A stretch of DNA of 64,000 bases. It comes from Acetobacteraceae bacterium (GTDB lineage: Bacteria; Pseudomonadota; Alphaproteobacteria; Acetobacterales; Acetobacteraceae). The notes below the pieces were generated by a model, which was not told where the DNA came from, did not search any database, and worked only from the letters and a program-made list of their open reading frames with translations. Position 1 is the first letter of the stretch; every line of letters starts with the position of its first letter. This document shows, in pieces, positions 250 through 49,238 of the stretch. The stretch spans positions 1 to 64,000 of the forward strand of contig DAIDJM010000047.1 in assembly GCA_027451405.1 (NCBI GenBank). Direction: 5' to 3'. The position numbers were made by a program, and so were the translations under genes.

Positions 250-953
250 TCACCAACCTGCTTCGTCATCGCCCGCCCGGTCACTCCCGAGAGGCGAAAA
301 ATCTCGTCTTCCAGCGAACGCGCCAGCTTTCCCGGCGCGATCGCCACATGCACCACATGGTCCCGGCCGAACACCGCGCCGAGCGAGACCGCGTCGAGCG
401 GCTCCGCCACGGTGACATCGCGTGCGCCGGAGAGGAACCGCCGTTTCTCGTCGGGGCTGCCGTCCGAGGCTTGCAAGATGAGGGCGGCGCGGCCGGAAAC
501 CAGCCATTCCCGCGCTTTCGCAAACCCGGCTACCGCCTGGCCGGCCCGCCGCGCCAGCCCCACATGCTCGATCACGCGACGGATGAGCCCCGCTTCCACC
601 ATGGCCGCCAGATCGGGCGGCACCACCACCGGGCCCTTCGCGGCGCGAGCGAAAGCGCGCGCCAGAGAATTCTGGGCTCGGGCCGGTTCTATCACATCGC
701 GCCGCGGGCTCAACCACAGGCCCCGGCCGGGCAGGCGTGCCGCCAGGTCGGGGACGATGGCGCGATCGGGCGCGAGCACGAAGCGGATCATGCGCGCGCG
801 CGGACCCGGCTCGCGCGTGGCGACGCAGAGCCGGTGAGGGCCCTCTTCCGCCTCGGGCGCGGCATCCAGGAGGGTGTCGGACGTCTCAGCTCTCCTCGCC
901 CGGCGCGGCCCCGGCGGCGGCTTCGGGAGCGGCCTGGGTTTCCCCTTCCTCAC
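246..953 (-). CDS. YlxR (DUF448) / L7Ae-like RNA-binding protein; start uncertain
   Basis: About 210-235 aa. It has an N-terminal YlxR-like domain (PHRLCVATREPGPRARMIRF, then the GRGLW motif) and a C-terminal L7Ae-like fold (LARRAGQAVAGFAKAREWL, AALILQASDGSPDE). This is the arrangement found between nusA and infB in alphaproteobacteria; the family binds RNA or the ribosome, and its exact role is unsettled. The stop overlaps the infB start. No ATG, GTG or TTG lies between the nusA stop and the conserved domain. The nearest usual start in frame is a GTG at 953, inside nusA; the alternative is a rare codon just after the nusA stop, such as ACG about 7 nt after GAGGAG. The 5' end given is therefore tentative. 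Confidence 0.8.
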   Translation of the reverse strand: MRKGKPRPLPKPPPGPRRARRAETSDTLLDAAPEAEEGPHRLCVATREPGPRARMIRFVLAPDRAIVPDLAARLPGRGLWLSPRRDVIEPARAQNSLARAFARAAKGPVVVPPDLAAMVEAGLIRRVIEHVGLARRAGQAVAGFAKAREWLVSGRAALILQASDGSPDEKRRFLSGARDVTVAEPLDAVSLGAVFGRDHVVHVAIAPGKLARSLEDEIFRLSGVTGRAMTKQVGE

Positions 954-2448
954 ACTCGAACCAATGCGCGCGGGCAGCCATGATGATGTCGTTCGCGGCG
1001 GCCTCGTCGATCGCGTCCTCGCCGAGAATCTCGACGAGTTCGTCGCCGGCGAGATCGGCCAGATCGTCGAGCGTCTTGACGCCCTTCTCGCCGAGCGTGA
1101 CCAGCATCTGCGGCGTGAAGGCCTCGAAGGCGGCGACCTCCTCGGCAACGCCGAGCTCGAGCCGGCGCTCGTTCAGCGCCTGGTCGCGGCGCACGAGATA
1201 GGCTTCGGCGCGCATCAACAACTGATCGGCGATGTTTTCATCGAATCCCTCGATTTCGGCGAGCTCGTCGCGCGGCGTGTAGGCCAGTTCCTCGACCGTA
1301 TTGAAACCCTCGGTGACGAGCAGGCCGGCGATCACGTCGTCGACGTCGAGCGCGTCGACGAACAGGCCGGTGCGGCGGCGGAACTCTTCCTGCCGGCGCT
1401 CGCTTTCCTCGGCCTCGGTGAGGATGTCGATGTCCCAGCGCGTGAGCTGGCTCGCGAGCCGCACGTTCTGCCCGCGCCGGCCGATCGCGAGGCTCAGTTG
1501 CTCATCGGGAACGACCACCTCGACCCGGCCGGCTTCCTCGTCCATCACCACTTTGGTGACTTCGGCCGGCGCCAGCGCGTTGACCACGAAGGTCGCGGCC
1601 TGCGGCGACCAGGGAATGATGTCGATCTTCTCGCCCTGCAATTCCTGCACGACCGCCTGCACGCGGCTGCCGCGCATGCCCACGCAGGCGCCAACCGGGT
1701 CGATCGAATGATCGCGCGAGATCACCGCCATCTTGGCGCGGCTGCCGGGATCGCGGGCGACCGCCTTGATTTCGATGATGCCGTCGTAGATTTCCGGGAC
1801 TTCCTGCGCGAAGAGCTTGGCGAGAAACGCGGGATGCGTGCGGGAGAGAAAGATCTGCGGGCCGCGCGGTTCCTCGCGCACGTCGTAGATATAGGCGCGC
1901 ACGCGGTCGCCGTTGCGGAAGCTTTCGCGCGGGATCAGCTCGTCACGGCGCAGCAGCGCCTCGGCGCGGCCGATCTCGACCATCAGGTTGCCGTATTCGG
2001 TGCGCTTGACGACGCCGTTGACGATCTCGCCGACGCGGTCCTTGAACTCGTCATATTGCCGCTTGCGCTCGTATTCGCGCACGCGCTGCACGATCACCTG
2101 TTTCGCGGTCTGCGCGGCGATGCGGCCGAAATCGATCGGCGGCAGCGGATCGACGATGAATTTGCCGATCTCGAGCGCGGGGTCGATGCGCTTGGCGATA
2201 TGGACCGGGATCTGCGTCTCTTCGTTCTCGACGGTTTCGACCACTTCGGTCCAGCGCGAGAGGCGCACATCGCCGGTGCGCCGGTCGATGGTGGCGCGGA
2301 TATCCTTCTCGGCGCCGTATTTGGCGCGGCCGGCCTTCTGGATGGCCTGCTCCATCGCTTCGAGCACTTCCTCGCGATCGATCGATTTCTCGCGCGCGAC
2401 GGCGTCGGCGACGAGGAGCAGTTCGGGGCGGGCTACGGCGGTGTCCAT
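886..2448 (-). CDS. nusA: Transcription termination/antitermination factor NusA
   Basis: 520 aa. NusA binds RNA polymerase and controls pausing, intrinsic termination and Rho- or antiterminator-dependent events. Domains in order: N-terminal RNAP-binding domain (about 1-130, beginning at MDTAVARPELLLVADAVA), S1 domain (about 135-200), two KH domains (about 210-345, with GACVGMRGSRVQAVVQEL and LAIGRRGQNVRLASQL), and an acidic C-terminal region with two helix-hairpin-helix repeats. These C-terminal repeats occur in proteobacterial NusA. The gene lies 46 nt downstream of rimP; between them is a small hairpin that looks like a relic of the stop-anchored repeat family. Length and domains are normal, so the call is secure. 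Confidence 0.97.
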   Translation of the reverse strand: MDTAVARPELLLVADAVAREKSIDREEVLEAMEQAIQKAGRAKYGAEKDIRATIDRRTGDVRLSRWTEVVETVENEETQIPVHIAKRIDPALEIGKFIVDPLPPIDFGRIAAQTAKQVIVQRVREYERKRQYDEFKDRVGEIVNGVVKRTEYGNLMVEIGRAEALLRRDELIPRESFRNGDRVRAYIYDVREEPRGPQIFLSRTHPAFLAKLFAQEVPEIYDGIIEIKAVARDPGSRAKMAVISRDHSIDPVGACVGMRGSRVQAVVQELQGEKIDIIPWSPQAATFVVNALAPAEVTKVVMDEEAGRVEVVVPDEQLSLAIGRRGQNVRLASQLTRWDIDILTEAEESERRQEEFRRRTGLFVDALDVDDVIAGLLVTEGFNTVEELAYTPRDELAEIEGFDENIADQLLMRAEAYLVRRDQALNERRLELGVAEEVAAFEAFTPQMLVTLGEKGVKTLDDLADLAGDELVEILGEDAIDEAAANDIIMAARAHWFECEEGETQAAPEAAAGAAPGEES

Positions 2449-2469
2449 GGGGTCTTTCCTATCTCATGC

Positions 2470-2497
2470 GCCTCCGGCCCGCCGGAGGCACCTCTCA
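2470..2497 (-). repeat. Relic of the stop-anchored palindromic repeat between rimP and nusA
   Basis: Hairpin GCCTCCGG-CCCG-CCGGAGGC (2470-2489) followed by CACCTCTCA, which includes the complement of the rimP stop codon. This is the same tail (GCCGGAGGCAC-TCTCA) that ends the full repeat copies near 15520 and 32940. The CTGGGGCC core is missing, so it is either a decayed copy or the minimal unit. It forms the whole rimP-nusA spacer apart from the nusA ribosome-binding region. Confidence 0.6.
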
Positions 2498-3010
2498 ATG
2501 TTTCTTCGCGGCGGTCGCCGCGATCAATTCGTCCGTCAGCACGAGCTGCGCCCGCCGCAGATCGGCGAGCGGCAGCCGGACCTCGCTGCCGTCATCGAGT
2601 CGCAGGCGCCCGGCGCCGTCCTCGGCGCCCATCACCATGCCCGCAAAGCGCTTGCGCCCATCGAGCGGCACGGCGAGTTCGGCGCGCGCGCGGTGGCCGG
2701 CATAGCGCTCCCAGTCGCGGGCCCGGGTCAGCGGGCGGTCGATGCCGGCCGAGCTGATTTCGAGGGTCCAGGCGCCATGGATCGGGTCGGCCACGTCGAG
2801 CACGGCGCCGAGGGCGACCGAGATCGCCTCGCAATCCTCGACGCCGATCGGCAGGCCGCCGGCGCGGTCGGCCATGATCTGCACGACCGGCCGGTCGCGA
2901 CCGCGAATCGAGACGCGCACGAGCTCGTATCCCATGCCCTCGAGGGTGGGCGTGACCGCGTCGGCGATGCGGGCTTCGAGCCCGGTATGGTGCGGCTGGT
3001 CCTGGTCCAA
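2495..3010 (-). CDS. rimP: Ribosome maturation factor RimP
   Basis: 171 aa. RimP assists maturation of the 30S subunit. The sequence shows the N-terminal alpha/beta domain ([20 protein letters not shown], then the conserved [20 protein letters not shown]) and a C-terminal Sm-like domain ([20 protein letters not shown]). Being the first gene before nusA is the usual position. The ATG at 3010 was chosen because the conserved region begins directly after MDQDQPHHT. The upstream 120 nt hold a short hairpin (CTCCAT/ATGGAG around 3040-3057) but no tRNA gene, unlike the E. coli operon. Confidence 0.95.
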
Positions 3011-3133
3011 TGCCGATCAGGCGGCGCCGGAGCGCCACCCTCCATTTGAAGATGGAGTTGTAGGGTGAACCCGTTCAATACGACCGCGCCGCGCCAGCCG
3101 CAAGCGGGTCGTGAGCGCGCGATCGGGGGCGCG

Positions 3134-4219
3134 CTATTTGGCGCTGCCGGCGTCGGCGAGATCGAGGCAGTTCGGCCAGAGCCAGGTCGATTGCGAGATC
3201 AGGTTGCCGCCATTGTCGAGCATCTGGACCGAGAGCGCGCTGTTGCCGGCCGGCGGATAGGCGTAATTGAACCAGGTGTTGCCGACCGCGGCGCCGGTGT
3301 CGGAGATGAAGGCGCGCACGTAATTGGCGAGATTGCTGATGGTGGTGCCGAAGGTCGGGCGTTCGAGAATCCATTCCGCGCTCGTACCCTTGAAGCTCGT
3401 CCCGGCCGGCGCGGTCGGCGACATCACCACATACTGGTTGGAGGTTGCGTTCTCGACCAGCACGAAGCCGGTGGTCGCGCTTTTCGCGGCGATGAAGACG
3501 ATCACGATGTCGCCGGGGCTGATCAGCAGATTGGTGATCTGCACGAGGCCGGCCGGAAACCATTCCATCCAGGGATAATAGTAGGCGCTGCTGCCGGCGC
3601 TGGTGCAGTAGGCGTCCCCTTCGACGCCGGCCTGCAGGATGTCGCCGCTGTTGACGCCGTCGAGGCCGACCCAGGTGGAATAATGCACGCCGGTATTGCA
3701 GGTCCCGAAGGGAAGTTCGGCGATCGACACGTTGAAATCGCCGGCCGCCTGGGTGATCGAGCTGCCGCCGAGGCTGGCGGCGCCGTTGGCGACCACCATG
3801 CCGCTCCAGTTGCGGCTGTAATCGTTCACCGGAATGTTGCTCGATTGTGTGACCGCCGGCGCGCGCGGCGCGAAAGGCGCGGGAACCCAGACCGGAAGGG
3901 CCATCTCGCGGTGGAGTCTGCGCAGTTGCGGCGTGATGCGGATTTTCGCGCCGGCGACCATGCGGACCCAGTGCGCGTAGGCGGTGCCTTGCATCTTCGA
4001 GGGGCGCGGCGGAAAGCCATAGGCGTCGAGATCCGCGTCGCTGGCGCGCAGCGGATCGAAGCCCGCGGGCGGCGCCGCCACGGTGGCGATGTCGGGCAGC
4101 GTGGTGGGCAAAAGGCGCGGCGCAGCCATGGCGTTCAACGGCAGGGCGATCGCGAAACCGAAGGTTGCAAGCGTGCGACGCAAGGCGGGCTCCCCGGGGA
4201 TGGCGGCGCGCCGCGTCAT
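3134..4219 (-). CDS. Secreted G1-family (eqolisin-type) endopeptidase
   Basis: 361 aa. It has an N-terminal signal sequence (hydrophobic TLATFGFAIALPLNA, cut near AMA-AP), a propeptide-like stretch to about residue 130, then a G1/A4 peptidase domain: NWSGMVVANG, YSTWVGLDG, ILQAGVEG, YYPWMEWFPAG and AEWILERP. In eqolisins a Gln and a Glu form the catalytic dyad; the candidates here are Q196 (ILQAG) and a Glu of AEWILE (E282/E286). Members work at low pH, so this is probably a secreted acid protease, which suits an acidophilic or acid-tolerant host. It is monocistronic, downstream of the LuxR gene on the same strand with 108 nt between them. The assignment of catalytic residues is by motif only. 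Confidence 0.85.
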   Translation of the reverse strand: MTRRAAIPGEPALRRTLATFGFAIALPLNAMAAPRLLPTTLPDIATVAAPPAGFDPLRASDADLDAYGFPPRPSKMQGTAYAHWVRMVAGAKIRITPQLRRLHREMALPVWVPAPFAPRAPAVTQSSNIPVNDYSRNWSGMVVANGAASLGGSSITQAAGDFNVSIAELPFGTCNTGVHYSTWVGLDGVNSGDILQAGVEGDAYCTSAGSSAYYYPWMEWFPAGLVQITNLLISPGDIVIVFIAAKSATTGFVLVENATSNQYVVMSPTAPAGTSFKGTSAEWILERPTFGTTISNLANYVRAFISDTGAAVGNTWFNYAYPPAGNSALSVQMLDNGGNLISQSTWLWPNCLDLADAGSAK

Positions 4220-43422: not shown

Positions 43423-44385
43423 TTGGGGCTCATTTTACATATCGGCCCACACAAAACCGGCACGACGGCGATTCAGAAGGGCCTGCTCGACAATCGAGGA
43501 AGACTAGCCGAACTTGATATCCGCTACCCGGAGATCGGCTTCCATTATTACGGCCACCATAAAATCGCTGAAGCTCTGACTCAGCCCAGGCGAGCCGATG
43601 AGGCGACCCAATATTTGTCGGCGATCGCTCAGCTGCCTGGCACGGTTGTCGTTTCAAGCGAAAACTTCTCCAAATGCTCGCCGGAAGCTGTTGCGCGCAT
43701 CCGGGAAATCATTCCGGGAGACGTTACTGTCGTCTGTTATCTGAGGAGCTTTCTGGAGATTCCCTACGCTTGGTGGCAGGAGCAGATCAAGCACGGGAAA
43801 ACCCTTGAATTTACAGCATGTTTGAGCGAGATGCTTCTGCGCCCTCATCAAAACCACCTTTTTGGGATAAGCCGGACGCTGGAGGCTTGGTGTGAGAATT
43901 TCGGAGAGGAGAATCTCCGTCTCTTCAGCTACGAAGCGGCAAGGGAATTGCCGGACGGTGGGACATTTGCTCACTTTATGAAGACGGTTCTTGGCGTTAC
44001 CGAGTATACGACAAGTCCAGGCTTGCAAACGATCAACCGGTCGTTCGATGCCGCTGGTGTGGAGACGATGAGAGCGCTCAACGTCCTGGGCTGGCAAGGT
44101 TTGGCGTTATTGCAAGACAGTCCCGCAGCCAAAGCGCTTCGTGATTTGCTCCGCGTCAGGGGCGAAAAATATAGAAGATCGATCCTGGTAGATTACGGGA
44201 CAACAACATTCAGGATGCTCGAAAAAAGCCTTCTCGACCGCTGGGGTAAAGCGATTGAGGCTTCGGAGCGGCTGGGTTCTGGGGGCCTGTTCCCCGAACG
44301 GTCGAAGGTCTTGTCCTTCCTGGATCCGGTGGCTTGGGTGGCAGAGGCCGACTTGGCGGCGGCCTTGAAGAACGTGAGCCGATAG
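43423..44385 (+). CDS. Second sulfotransferase-like protein
   Basis: 320 aa, TTG start after a GGAGTAGG site. LILHIGPHKTGTTAIQKGLL is the phosphosulfate-binding loop (K11); VTVVCYLRSFLEIPYAWWQE is the probable 3'-phosphate region. It shares this layout with the protein at 38595 but is otherwise diverged, so they are distant paralogues or separate acquisitions. Codon use is the least GC-biased of the window. Likely decorates the glycan of the neighbouring GT2-GT4 protein; the acceptor is unknown. Confidence 0.72.
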   Translation: MGLILHIGPHKTGTTAIQKGLLDNRGRLAELDIRYPEIGFHYYGHHKIAEALTQPRRADEATQYLSAIAQLPGTVVVSSENFSKCSPEAVARIREIIPGDVTVVCYLRSFLEIPYAWWQEQIKHGKTLEFTACLSEMLLRPHQNHLFGISRTLEAWCENFGEENLRLFSYEAARELPDGGTFAHFMKTVLGVTEYTTSPGLQTINRSFDAAGVETMRALNVLGWQGLALLQDSPAAKALRDLLRVRGEKYRRSILVDYGTTTFRMLEKSLLDRWGKAIEASERLGSGGLFPERSKVLSFLDPVAWVAEADLAAALKNVSR

Positions 44386-46563: not shown

Positions 46564-47346
46564 ATGGTCAAACCATTCGCGTTTCCGGAGCAGGACGGCC
46601 CGGCGAGCTGTGCGTCCCGCGACGAATCGCGGATCGCGGCGCTCGAAGCCGAGATTGCCGCGCGCGACCTGTTCATCGCCACACTCGGACACGAGCTGCG
46701 CAACCCGATGGTGCCGATCATGCTCTCGGTCGATCGCCTGAAACGGCAGATCGCCAGCGGCGAGATCGACAAACTCCGGGGCACGGTCGAGACGCTCGAC
46801 AAGGCGGCCGATGCGTTCATGCGGCGCGCGACACAATTGCTCGATCTGTCGCGTATCGGCGGGGGCGGGCTCTCGCTCGCCGCCGAGCGGGTGGGGCTCG
46901 GGGAATTGCTGGCCGAGGCCGCGGCCCGGCATCGCGACACCGCCCAGCGCGCGCAATGCGAATTGCGCTTCCTGCCCCAGGCCGATTGCGCTGCCCGGGG
47001 AGATCGCGCGTCGGTTGAGCAGATTCTCGATAACGTTCTTTTGAACGCGTTCAAATATGGGCATGGAAGACCCGTCGAACTGACCTTCTGGTGTAGTGGC
47101 GATCGCGCAACGGTTTCGGTTCGCGATCATGGTCCCGGCGTGCCGGAGGAGGCGCAGGCGGCGATTTTCGATCTGTTCGGGCGCGGCCCGCGGCAGGATG
47201 CGCCGGGTCTGGGCATTGGCCTGTTCATCTCGGCAAGGCTGGCGGAAGCGATGGGAGGGCGGCTAGGTCTTGCGCCGGCGGAAGGCGGGGGCGCGGCTTT
47301 CCATTTGGAGTTGCCTCTGTATGGGGAAGCCGGCGCGGCGGCGTAG
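46564..47346 (+). CDS. Soluble HisKA histidine kinase of the KaiC-like operon
   Basis: 260 aa, without membrane segments. After a short coiled-coil (IAALEAEIAARDLFIATLGH) comes the dimerisation/phosphoacceptor helix GHELRNPMVPIMLSVDRLK (H43), then the HATPase domain: EQILDNVLLNAFKYGHGR (N box), VRDHGPGVPEEAQAAIFDLF (G1) and GLGIGLFISARLAEAMGG (G2). There is no sensory domain, so its input probably comes from a partner such as the KaiC-like protein 22 nt downstream. Expected to phosphorylate the receiver at 48882; the pairing is inferred. Confidence 0.9.
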   Translation: MVKPFAFPEQDGPASCASRDESRIAALEAEIAARDLFIATLGHELRNPMVPIMLSVDRLKRQIASGEIDKLRGTVETLDKAADAFMRRATQLLDLSRIGGGGLSLAAERVGLGELLAEAAARHRDTAQRAQCELRFLPQADCAARGDRASVEQILDNVLLNAFKYGHGRPVELTFWCSGDRATVSVRDHGPGVPEEAQAAIFDLFGRGPRQDAPGLGIGLFISARLAEAMGGRLGLAPAEGGGAAFHLELPLYGEAGAAA

Positions 47347-47368
47347 CGCGGGGAGCGGGCAGGGGGAT

Positions 47369-48877
47369 ATGAGCGGATTGTCGGACCACCCGGACGGACG
47401 CATGCCGTCGGGCATCGCCGGACTCGACCAGGTCCTGCTGGGCGGCTTCGTGCGCAACGGCATCTATATCGTTCAGGGACCGCCGGGATCGGGTAAGACC
47501 ATCCTCGCCAACCAGATCTGCTACACGCAGGTCGCCGCCGGCGGACGCGCGCTCTATGTCACGCTGCTGTCCGAGCAGCACGAGCGCATGTTGTCGAATT
47601 TGCGGCAGATGCGTTTCTTCGATCCCGGCTGCATCGCGCGCGAGATGAGCTATATCAGCGCGTTCCAGACGCTGGAGCGCGAGGGACTCGCGGGATTGCT
47701 CGCGCTGCTCCGGCGCGAGCTCGTCGGGCATCGCGCCACGGTGCTGGTGATCGACGGGCTCGTCGCGGCCGAGGCCTATGCCACGAACGCGCTCGCGCTC
47801 AAGAAATTCGTGCACGAGCTGCAGATGCTCTGTTCGGCCGGGGACTGCACCATGTTCCTGCTGACGAGCGCCGTCGATGCGACGGTGTCGGCCGAGCACA
47901 CGATGGTCGACGGCATGATCGAAATCGGCACGCAATCATTTGGATGGCGGGTCGAACGCCAGCTGCTCGTGCGAAAGTTCCGCGGCAGTGACTATCTCGC
48001 CGGCCAGCACGCGATGGCCATCAGCACCGACGGGATCACGATCTGGCCACGGATCGAGGCGTTGCTGACCGCGCCCGGGCGCGCCGCCCGCCGGGGCGAT
48101 GCGGCCCGCGCCGGCACCGGCATTGCCGGGCTCGATGCCATGGTGGGAGGCGGCATTCCGAAAGGGTCGGCAACCTTGCTGCTCGGGCCTACAGGCACTG
48201 GCAAGACCGCGATCGGCTTGCGCTTCCTGGCCGGCTGTTCGGCGGATGAGCCGGGGCTCTGGCTCGGGTTTTACGAATCGCCCGAGCAGCTCGAAGCGCG
48301 GGCGGCGGATATGGCGCCGGCACTCGTGCCGCTGATCCGCGATGGCGTCGTGCGTTTCGTCTGGCAGAGCCCGTCGGAGGGGCTGATCGACCGCGTCACC
48401 GGCGAGGTGATCGACGATGTGCGGCAGCGGCGGGTGAAGCGGCTCGTGGTGGACGGGCTTCTCGGCTTCCGCGACATGACGGTGCAGCCCGAGCGGCTGG
48501 GTGGTTTCTACCGGGCGTTCGCCAACGAGATGCGCGGACTCGATGTGACCGCGTTCTACACGGTCGAAGTGCCGGAACTGCTCGGTCCGGTGTTGCGGGC
48601 GCCGGTCCCGCGCCTGACGGCGATTTCGGAAAACCTCCTGCTGCTGCGCTTCGTTGAGCATGACGGGCGGTTGAAACGGCTTATTTCCGTGATGAAGGTG
48701 CGCAACAGCGCCTTCGATCCGCGATTGCGGGAATTGGAAATCGGCGGGGGCGGCGTGGCGATCGGGGAGGCGTTCGATGGCGAGCGAGCCCTGCTCTCGG
48801 GCTATCCGACCCCGGAGTCGGAGGCATCCTCACCGCGCGCGGGCACGGCGGCCGGCCGGGATCCCGGCGGGGTCTGA
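47369..48877 (+). CDS. Double-domain KaiC-like ATPase
   Basis: 502 aa. Two RecA/KaiC domains in tandem. Domain 1: SGIAGLDQVLLGGF, Walker A GPPGSGKT (37-44), Walker B VLVIDG (about 115-120). Domain 2: TGIAGLDAMVGGGIPKGSAT, Walker A GPTGTGKT (273-280), Walker B LVVDG (359-363), and RFVEHDGRLKRLISVMKVRN, typical of KaiC. After the Walker A strand KaiC has two adjacent Glu; here only one remains in each domain (LLSEQHE and GFYESPEQ). The Ser-Thr autophosphorylation pair of cyanobacterial KaiC is not evident (LTAISENLL). No kaiA or kaiB is nearby. ATG 47369 after GGGCAGGGGG. Confidence 0.92.
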   Translation: MSGLSDHPDGRMPSGIAGLDQVLLGGFVRNGIYIVQGPPGSGKTILANQICYTQVAAGGRALYVTLLSEQHERMLSNLRQMRFFDPGCIAREMSYISAFQTLEREGLAGLLALLRRELVGHRATVLVIDGLVAAEAYATNALALKKFVHELQMLCSAGDCTMFLLTSAVDATVSAEHTMVDGMIEIGTQSFGWRVERQLLVRKFRGSDYLAGQHAMAISTDGITIWPRIEALLTAPGRAARRGDAARAGTGIAGLDAMVGGGIPKGSATLLLGPTGTGKTAIGLRFLAGCSADEPGLWLGFYESPEQLEARAADMAPALVPLIRDGVVRFVWQSPSEGLIDRVTGEVIDDVRQRRVKRLVVDGLLGFRDMTVQPERLGGFYRAFANEMRGLDVTAFYTVEVPELLGPVLRAPVPRLTAISENLLLLRFVEHDGRLKRLISVMKVRNSAFDPRLRELEIGGGGVAIGEAFDGERALLSGYPTPESEASSPRAGTAAGRDPGGV

Positions 48878-48881
48878 GCCG

Positions 48882-49238
48882 ATGGCAACGGTGCTCGTCG
48901 TGGACGATGAATTCGGGATCGGCGAGCTGCTGGAAGCCCTGCTGCAGGATGAGGGGCATCGCGTGCTGACCGCGATTCATGGCCGCCACGCGCTCGAGCG
49001 CATGGCGGTGGCGCGGCCCGACCTCGTGATCAGCGACCTGATGATGCCGGTGATGGATGGCGCGGCCCTGCTGCGCGCGATGCGCGACAATGCCGAGTTC
49101 GCGAATATTCCGTTCGTGCTGATGTGCGCGCTGCCCGAAAGCGCGGTCCGGGAACGGGTGCAGGGCTATACGGCGTTCCTGCGCAAGCCGTTCAAGCTGG
49201 CGGCGATTTCGGCGCTGACGGCGTCGCTTCTGGAATGA
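48882..49238 (+). CDS. Single-domain response regulator of the KaiC-like operon
   Basis: 118 aa, one receiver domain and no output domain. VLVVDDEFGIGELLEALLQD (acidic pair), LVISDLMMPVMDGAALL (phosphoacceptor D52) and FLRKPFKL (K102). The usual Thr/Ser after strand 4 is Cys (VLMCALPES, C82), an uncommon change at a signalling residue. Starts 4 nt after the KaiC-like stop. Probably acts by binding a partner, perhaps the KaiC-like protein or kinase. Confidence 0.9.
   Translation: MATVLVVDDEFGIGELLEALLQDEGHRVLTAIHGRHALERMAVARPDLVISDLMMPVMDGAALLRAMRDNAEFANIPFVLMCALPESAVRERVQGYTAFLRKPFKLAAISALTASLLE

Follow-up and report, generated by a model that had tools for sequence, protein, structure and literature searches.

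We found that a KaiC-like ATPase and a stand-alone receiver, encoded side by side, form the constant core of a bacterial gene cassette, and that the histidine kinase beside them is exchangeable. The cassette was examined in the window, that is, the whole stretch of 64,000 nucleotides analysed, which comes from an Acetobacteraceae bacterium. Three genes make it up:

46564..47346, + strand: HisKA histidine kinase P0001, 260 aa, soluble, with the Pfam HisKA domain at residues 34-101 and HATPase families
47369..48877, + strand: two-domain KaiC-like ATPase P0002, 502 aa, with two stretches matching Pfam PF06745
48882..49238, + strand: stand-alone receiver P0003, 118 aa, with one Response_reg domain (Pfam)

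All three genes share the + strand, with a gap of 22 nt between kinase and KaiC and one of 4 nt between KaiC and receiver. The preliminary description had proposed a kinase/double-KaiC/receiver operon with a single receiver domain, and its coordinates, order, strand and gaps were confirmed, as was the single Response_reg domain of P0003. The mtnA gene lies 49 nt 5′ of the kinase gene on the same strand, and a glycosyltransferase 61 gene (Pfam) lies 3′ of the receiver on the opposite strand. A scan for promoter and terminator consensus sequences as transcript limits gave nothing above shuffles. The source genome (3.37 Mb, 97.66% complete) carries one full-length gene of the P0002 kind, as well as a weak 79-residue match elsewhere. 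Upstream of the cassette, an open reading frame at window 43423-44385 (320 aa) had no Pfam match at E 0.01; its N-terminus resembles, by eye, a sulfotransferase P-loop.

Gene order around KaiC among relatives

With the best 3 to 8 candidates scored per genome, P0002 matches were identified at E ≤ 1e-55 in 29 of 299 genomes of the window's own family, and matches were found in 15 of 398 genomes of a phylum sample, the window being included in both counts; one of the 15 (G606, 31% identity) fell outside the clade in the tree. Among plasmid records 267 matched P0002, distant KaiC types included, and 248 of these covered at least 80% of the query. A scan of genome contigs returned at least 144 relatives, of which 80 were kept. 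We then pooled 140 loci, comprising the window, 6 plasmid loci, 80 genome-contig loci, 14 loci from the phylum search and 39 longer stretches. Filtering at KaiC identity <90% dropped 25 loci and left 115. Six of these scored below 250 bits, formed a separate, starred branch and served as the comparison set; the remaining 109 are the clade set, which spans Pseudomonadota and Myxococcota, with many families and also plasmids. Named loci with relatives include those of Roseomonas rosea (L062), Acidisoma (L041) and Lichenicola (L032).

At all 109 clade loci (<90% identity), a receiver domain starts between -60 and +200 nt from the KaiC stop codon on the same strand. Elsewhere in the flanks there were 31 receiver domains in 867,339 bp, and from this density a receiver would be expected by chance in that interval, on the right strand, at about 0.5% of loci. 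A separate receiver gene adjoining KaiC is missing from all six comparison loci: downstream of KaiC, five of them carry a hybrid kinase-receiver gene, and the sixth has an upstream kinase. At one of them (L193), a weak 19-bit receiver match starts at +25, inside the downstream hybrid kinase gene. No gene among the 140 loci fuses KaiC to a kinase or a receiver, an arrangement that would have pointed to contact between the proteins. Since the association of KaiC with two-component genes is known here from genomic linkage, one may ask whether a generic two-component pair simply lies beside a kaiC-like gene whose product works alone. We regard this as very improbable, because the linkage holds at 109 of 109 loci over many families and plasmids, against a chance adjacency of only about 0.005 per locus, and because the six distant KaiC relatives have no such gene. 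The survey of gene order thus found the genes conserved together, with the order kept across the clade, and the module of the preliminary description withstood it.

The kinase behaves differently from the receiver. A HisKA kinase was detected directly upstream of KaiC at 48 of the 109 clade loci and was not detected there at 61; the kinase counts are lower bounds, since the kinase model was trained on HisKA and misses HWE types. The script labelled the 48 kinases as 31 short, 13 long and 4 hybrid, with lengths taken from stop to stop, so that the N-terminus is overstated. After reading of the N-termini, together with Pfam on nine, they comprised 32 sensorless kinases, 11 PAS-bearing kinases of a Pseudomonas type plus a fragment (L050), and 4 hybrids; two of the 11 PAS-bearing calls rest on Pfam (L045 and L148) and the others on similarity. 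Two kinases labelled long by the script, L115 and L168, were judged sensorless from their N-termini, L115 also by Pfam. Of the 32 sensorless kinases, 29 are intact, and those of L044, L162 and L167 are broken or cut by the contig end; these three and L050 are fragments, split frames or contig edges. The kinase of L159 matched HATPase_c only, with no HisKA match at E 0.001.

At 16 of the 61 loci without a directly upstream kinase, a HisKA kinase was found elsewhere in the fetched flank, and at L034 a PAS-HWE kinase follows right after the receiver, downstream of the KaiC-receiver pair; as the HisKA-based model overlooks other kinases, the label "no kinase linked" is unproven for any single locus. 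A downstream frame of at least 200 aa on the same strand starts within 300 nt at 31 of the 61 loci. Nineteen of these frames were scanned for a third conserved gene and showed neither a kinase domain nor a recurring family, a weak scan in that 13 of the 19 matched no Pfam family and could be spurious frames. The Pseudomonas loci, for example L045 and L047-L050, carry the same KaiC and receiver. A Rhizobium plasmid (L035) carries, besides the KaiC-receiver pair, another KaiC gene of a different kind with a hybrid kinase after it (474-4077); this segment ends about 0.9 kb upstream of the pair. Because the receiver is present at 109 of 109 loci and the upstream HisKA kinase at only 48, and in varied types, we conclude that KaiC and the receiver are the constant core and that the kinase can be exchanged.

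Residues of the KaiC-like ATPase and the clock question

P0002 has the features of a double-domain KaiC-type protein. It matches PF06745 at 183.8 bits in two stretches, and both P-loops are intact (GPPGSGKT and GPTGTGKT), with the P-loops of relatives kept in the commonest forms listed. The Walker B Asp is invariant at both sites in all 109 clade loci. An AlphaFold2 model of P0002, built with 69 sequences, had a mean pLDDT of 90.8 and a pTM of 0.87, and its top 50 Foldseek hits were all KaiC, with TM-scores to the query of 0.70-0.78 at 22-26% identity. The K-x-R pairs K203/R205 and K443/R445 align with KaiC's own pairs and are invariant in the 109 sequences, which is suggestive of a KaiC-like hexamer.

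The preliminary description stated that each domain lacks one of the two usual Glu residues. This proved right, and alignment with solved KaiC chains identified the second Glu of each pair as the one retained. In domain 1, the alignment pairs LLSE, which has one residue more, with -FEE, so that S68 stands in place of the first Glu and E69 is the second; in domain 2, FYES aligns with FEES, placing Y302 at the first Glu and E303 at the second. Across the clade E69 is invariant (109/109) and E303 is Glu in 105 of 109. At the first position, domain 1 has Ala, Ser or Gly; in domain 2, Tyr or Phe occupies it in 99 of the 109 rows, Asp in one and Glu in none. This domain-2 position is that of KaiC E318, which serves the autokinase in cyanobacterial KaiC; its replacement by Tyr or Phe argues against phospho-clock chemistry.

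It had also been claimed that no obvious phosphorylation pair is present. For the window this stood, as the positions of Ser431 and Thr432 read T417-A418; for the clade it did not, as 57 of 109 relatives, Lichenicola (L032) among them, read Ser-Ser there. Ser or Thr stands at the Ser431 position in 99 of the 109 loci, so that autophosphorylation is possible, and the Thr432 position is Ser in 67 of 109. An hourglass timer that runs without KaiA and KaiB, through KaiC autophosphorylation at the Ser431-equivalent site, would make use of these residues, and work cited in the available text of PMC11832031 found that a single Ser431 site suffices for a temperature-compensated period. We nevertheless consider such a timer improbable. 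At the second site the window has Ala and its three nearest kin have Pro; at the first catalytic Glu position of domain 2 no row has Glu and a single one has Asp; and, in the same available text, there is no evidence of circadian function for the Pseudomonas KaiC proteins studied. Domain 1 contains a further candidate residue. The motif E-H-T-M-V-D-G occupies P0002 176-182, with E176, T178 and D181 invariant in 109 of 109; hhalign places T178 opposite the Thr432 position of domain 2, and Ser or Thr is also found there in 5 of the 6 comparison rows. T178 is a possible phosphosite or interface residue.

We searched the source genome for the clock partners. Neither KaiA (PF07688) nor KaiB (PF07689) had a match, and the control searches were positive in Synechococcus elongatus; the claim that the operon occurs without KaiA or KaiB is therefore upheld for a genome that is 97.66% complete, although the absence is not absolute. 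P0002 scored 115.6 bits against the clock-KaiC equivalog TIGR02655 (cut-off 546.25) and 165.8 bits against NF006799 (cut-off 408). In the model of P0002, strand 93-97 of domain 1 leads almost directly into helix 99-121, and alignment with a designed KaiC placed a six-residue gap after this strand, in the region of KaiC's KaiB-binding loop. Of 42 genomes carrying the clade, 7 contain KaiB. It lies on a different contig from the clade's KaiC in six of these; in the seventh (G266), it is about 260 kb from one clade KaiC copy and on another contig from the second copy.

Several known assignments were rejected. A direct clock reading fails on the equivalog scores, the missing KaiA and KaiB and the missing residue pairs; membership of the circadian KaiC group fails at T417-A418 for the Ser431/Thr432 pair and at S68-E69 and Y302-E303 for the Glu pairs; and a KaiABC or KaiBC system is improbable, as neither kaiA nor kaiB had a match in the 97.66% complete source genome. 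The cassette is probably not a clock. There is good support for a KaiC signalling module that is not circadian, from the conserved order, the lack of KaiA and KaiB matches and the clock scores far below cut-off.

The sensorless kinase and the direction of signalling

Both partners of a two-component system are intact in the window. P0001 retains H43 and the residues of the N-, G1- and G2-boxes, and 44 of the 46 aligned rows keep the kinase His. P0003 has the phospho-acceptor D52 together with K102, both found in 109 of 109 receivers. Position 82 of the receiver is Ser or Thr in 105 of 109; the four receivers with Cys are those of the window, L038, L158 and L159, the same rows whose KaiC pair reads Thr-Ala or Thr-Pro.

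As the preliminary description held, P0001 is a soluble HisKA kinase without a sensor domain, for Pfam identified only HisKA and HATPase families and 33 residues precede HisKA. In the sensorless kinases generally, a short stretch, often ending in a REAVRARDEFVA-like motif, leads straight into the H-box. The window and its nearest kin, L158, L159 and L038, all have a sensorless kinase and together make up a starred group of four rows. On the KaiC tree, the short-kinase label required 8 changes, a count that includes the two rows mislabelled by the script (L115 and L168), compared with 27.5 in shuffles. The tree is a quick tree with SH-aLRT support, in which support is weak (89, marked open) at the fork of the larger group to which the window belongs (36 rows). 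L179 has a short kinase, yet lies outside the main short-kinase group.

In the 299 family genomes, a search with P0001 that scored the best eight candidates of each genome returned 24 places at E ≤ 1e-30. KaiC of the clade adjoins 22 of these 24 best places, the window included, as established by comparing coordinates and reading three more stretches; the sensorless kinase type is thus nearly tied to KaiC. One of the 22 (L197) is a second kinase-KaiC-receiver cassette in genome G103, with a KaiC frame split into three pieces. Two genomes of one genus carry orphan sensorless kinases (L198 and L199) with neither KaiC nor receiver adjoining, between genes judged by eye to be decarboxylase-like and CoA-transferase-like. 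Among 27 intact sensorless operons, pairwise distances correlated at r 0.81 for kinase and KaiC, 0.69 for kinase and receiver and 0.71 for KaiC and receiver, and 0 of 999 permutations were as high. Such correlated divergence is as expected of a co-inherited unit, and any stable operon would give the same.

Our best explanation, held with moderate confidence, is that the signal runs from the kinase through the receiver to KaiC, the sensorless kinase having been added to the KaiC-receiver core in this lineage. The kinase would phosphorylate D52 of the receiver. The receiver, which has no output domain, would then bind the KaiC assembly and change its ATPase or conformational state, and KaiC would be a switch or slow timer powered by ATP and not a clock based on phosphorylation. 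A receiver without an output domain adjoins KaiC at every locus examined, which makes KaiC its best candidate target. As this pair is constant and the kinase varies, the kinase may reach KaiC by way of the receiver, which would then not be the last step of a pathway that KaiC starts.

The opposite direction has to be weighed. In cyanobacteria, KaiC output passes through the kinase SasA to RpaA, and SasA has a KaiB-like N-terminal domain. The cassette shares with that system the KaiC fold, a histidine kinase and a receiver, but it has no KaiA or KaiB, its receiver has no output domain and the clock residues are missing. The main rival, which we regard as rather unlikely, is a SasA/RpaA-like output arm in which the nucleotide state of KaiC, as sensor or timer, would stimulate or inhibit the sensorless kinase, and the receiver would be the output. 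The kinase has only 33 residues before HisKA, the N-termini of its kin read alike, and its type is nearly restricted to KaiC neighbours. A sensorless kinase needs input from another source, and KaiC is the obvious candidate, which would reverse the direction of signalling. However, P0001 has no KaiB-like domain such as that of SasA (no PF07689 match), which rules out a SasA-type kinase; the 61 pairs without a directly upstream HisKA kinase keep the receiver; the PAS-bearing kinases in the same place have their own input; and the two genomes with orphan kinases hold this type away from KaiC. The earlier suggestion that the ATPase is the sensor for a kinase lacking its own input was thus not borne out, as KaiC and receiver are constant and the kinase varies from sensorless to PAS-bearing, hybrid or none found.

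Returning to signalling from kinase to KaiC, we tentatively propose that a phosphorylatable receiver replaces KaiA and KaiB as the regulator of a KaiC ring without autokinase chemistry. The autokinase would have been given up, with the first Glu of each domain replaced clade-wide, and the ATPase sites and K-x-R interface residues are kept. Any kinase able to phosphorylate the receiver could plug in, whether sensorless, PAS-bearing, hybrid, HWE or encoded elsewhere. A parallel exists in the pseudoreceiver domain of KaiA and in KaiA3, which has a NarL-type receiver domain according to the available part of PMC11372060. If true, the proposal would describe a KaiC switch driven by two-component signalling.

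Relation to described KaiC systems

KaiC function outside cyanobacteria is an open question, and the clade offers a delimited and simple system, with one ATPase, one receiver adjoining it at all loci examined and a kinase that can be swapped. Two ideas become testable: that two-component phosphorylation can drive a KaiC ring without KaiA and KaiB, and that KaiC can work as an ATPase switch that needs no cycle of phosphorylation. A further prediction is that, in many soil and plant bacteria, the receivers beside this kaiC type are regulators of KaiC and not orphan response regulators.

The closest description was found in the Ramlibacter genome paper (PMC3164672), where, in the text available, kaiC of a third ("black") context group is frequently followed by a receiver gene or lies near a histidine kinase, most members have one or no phosphorylation site, and the arrangement is termed "less conserved". 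The window agrees on both points, with kaiC followed by a stand-alone receiver and at most one phosphorylation site. In contrast, the pair is found here at 109 of 109 loci of a delimited clade, with a sensorless kinase upstream in the window; the match to the "black" group, made by description, is putative. The same text reports a kaiC + Nt_HK pair, Rta_04330/Rta_04340, which likewise places KaiC and a histidine kinase in one operon without kaiB. In that pair the kinase gene lies after kaiC and its product has a sensor domain, which is conserved, at the N-terminus, whereas the window's kinase precedes KaiC and has no sensor domain, and a receiver is added.

In environmental Pseudomonas, KaiC proteins reportedly have a role in stress resistance and biofilm, with no circadian evidence (Terrettaz et al. 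2023, as cited in the available text of PMC11832031 and PMC11372060). Membership of the tested proteins in the clade is putative. Our Pseudomonas loci carry this KaiC and receiver; they differ from the window in that the place of the sensorless kinase is taken by a PAS-bearing or hybrid kinase, or that no kinase was found. A search by title and start of abstract, weak in that subscription literature lay mostly outside it, gave, among the papers listed, no description of a sensorless-kinase/KaiC/receiver cassette, and the accessible parts of PMC5520375, PMC10173096 and PMC13286277 held nothing further on the arrangement. KaiC followed by a receiver is thus already known (PMC3164672), and the cassette with a sensorless kinase appears, on weak literature evidence, to be new. 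One residue assignment differs from the published one: the P. entomophila locus (L069) reads Ser-Gly at the site pair, where the available text of PMC3164672 gives Ser-Ser for PSEEN2280.
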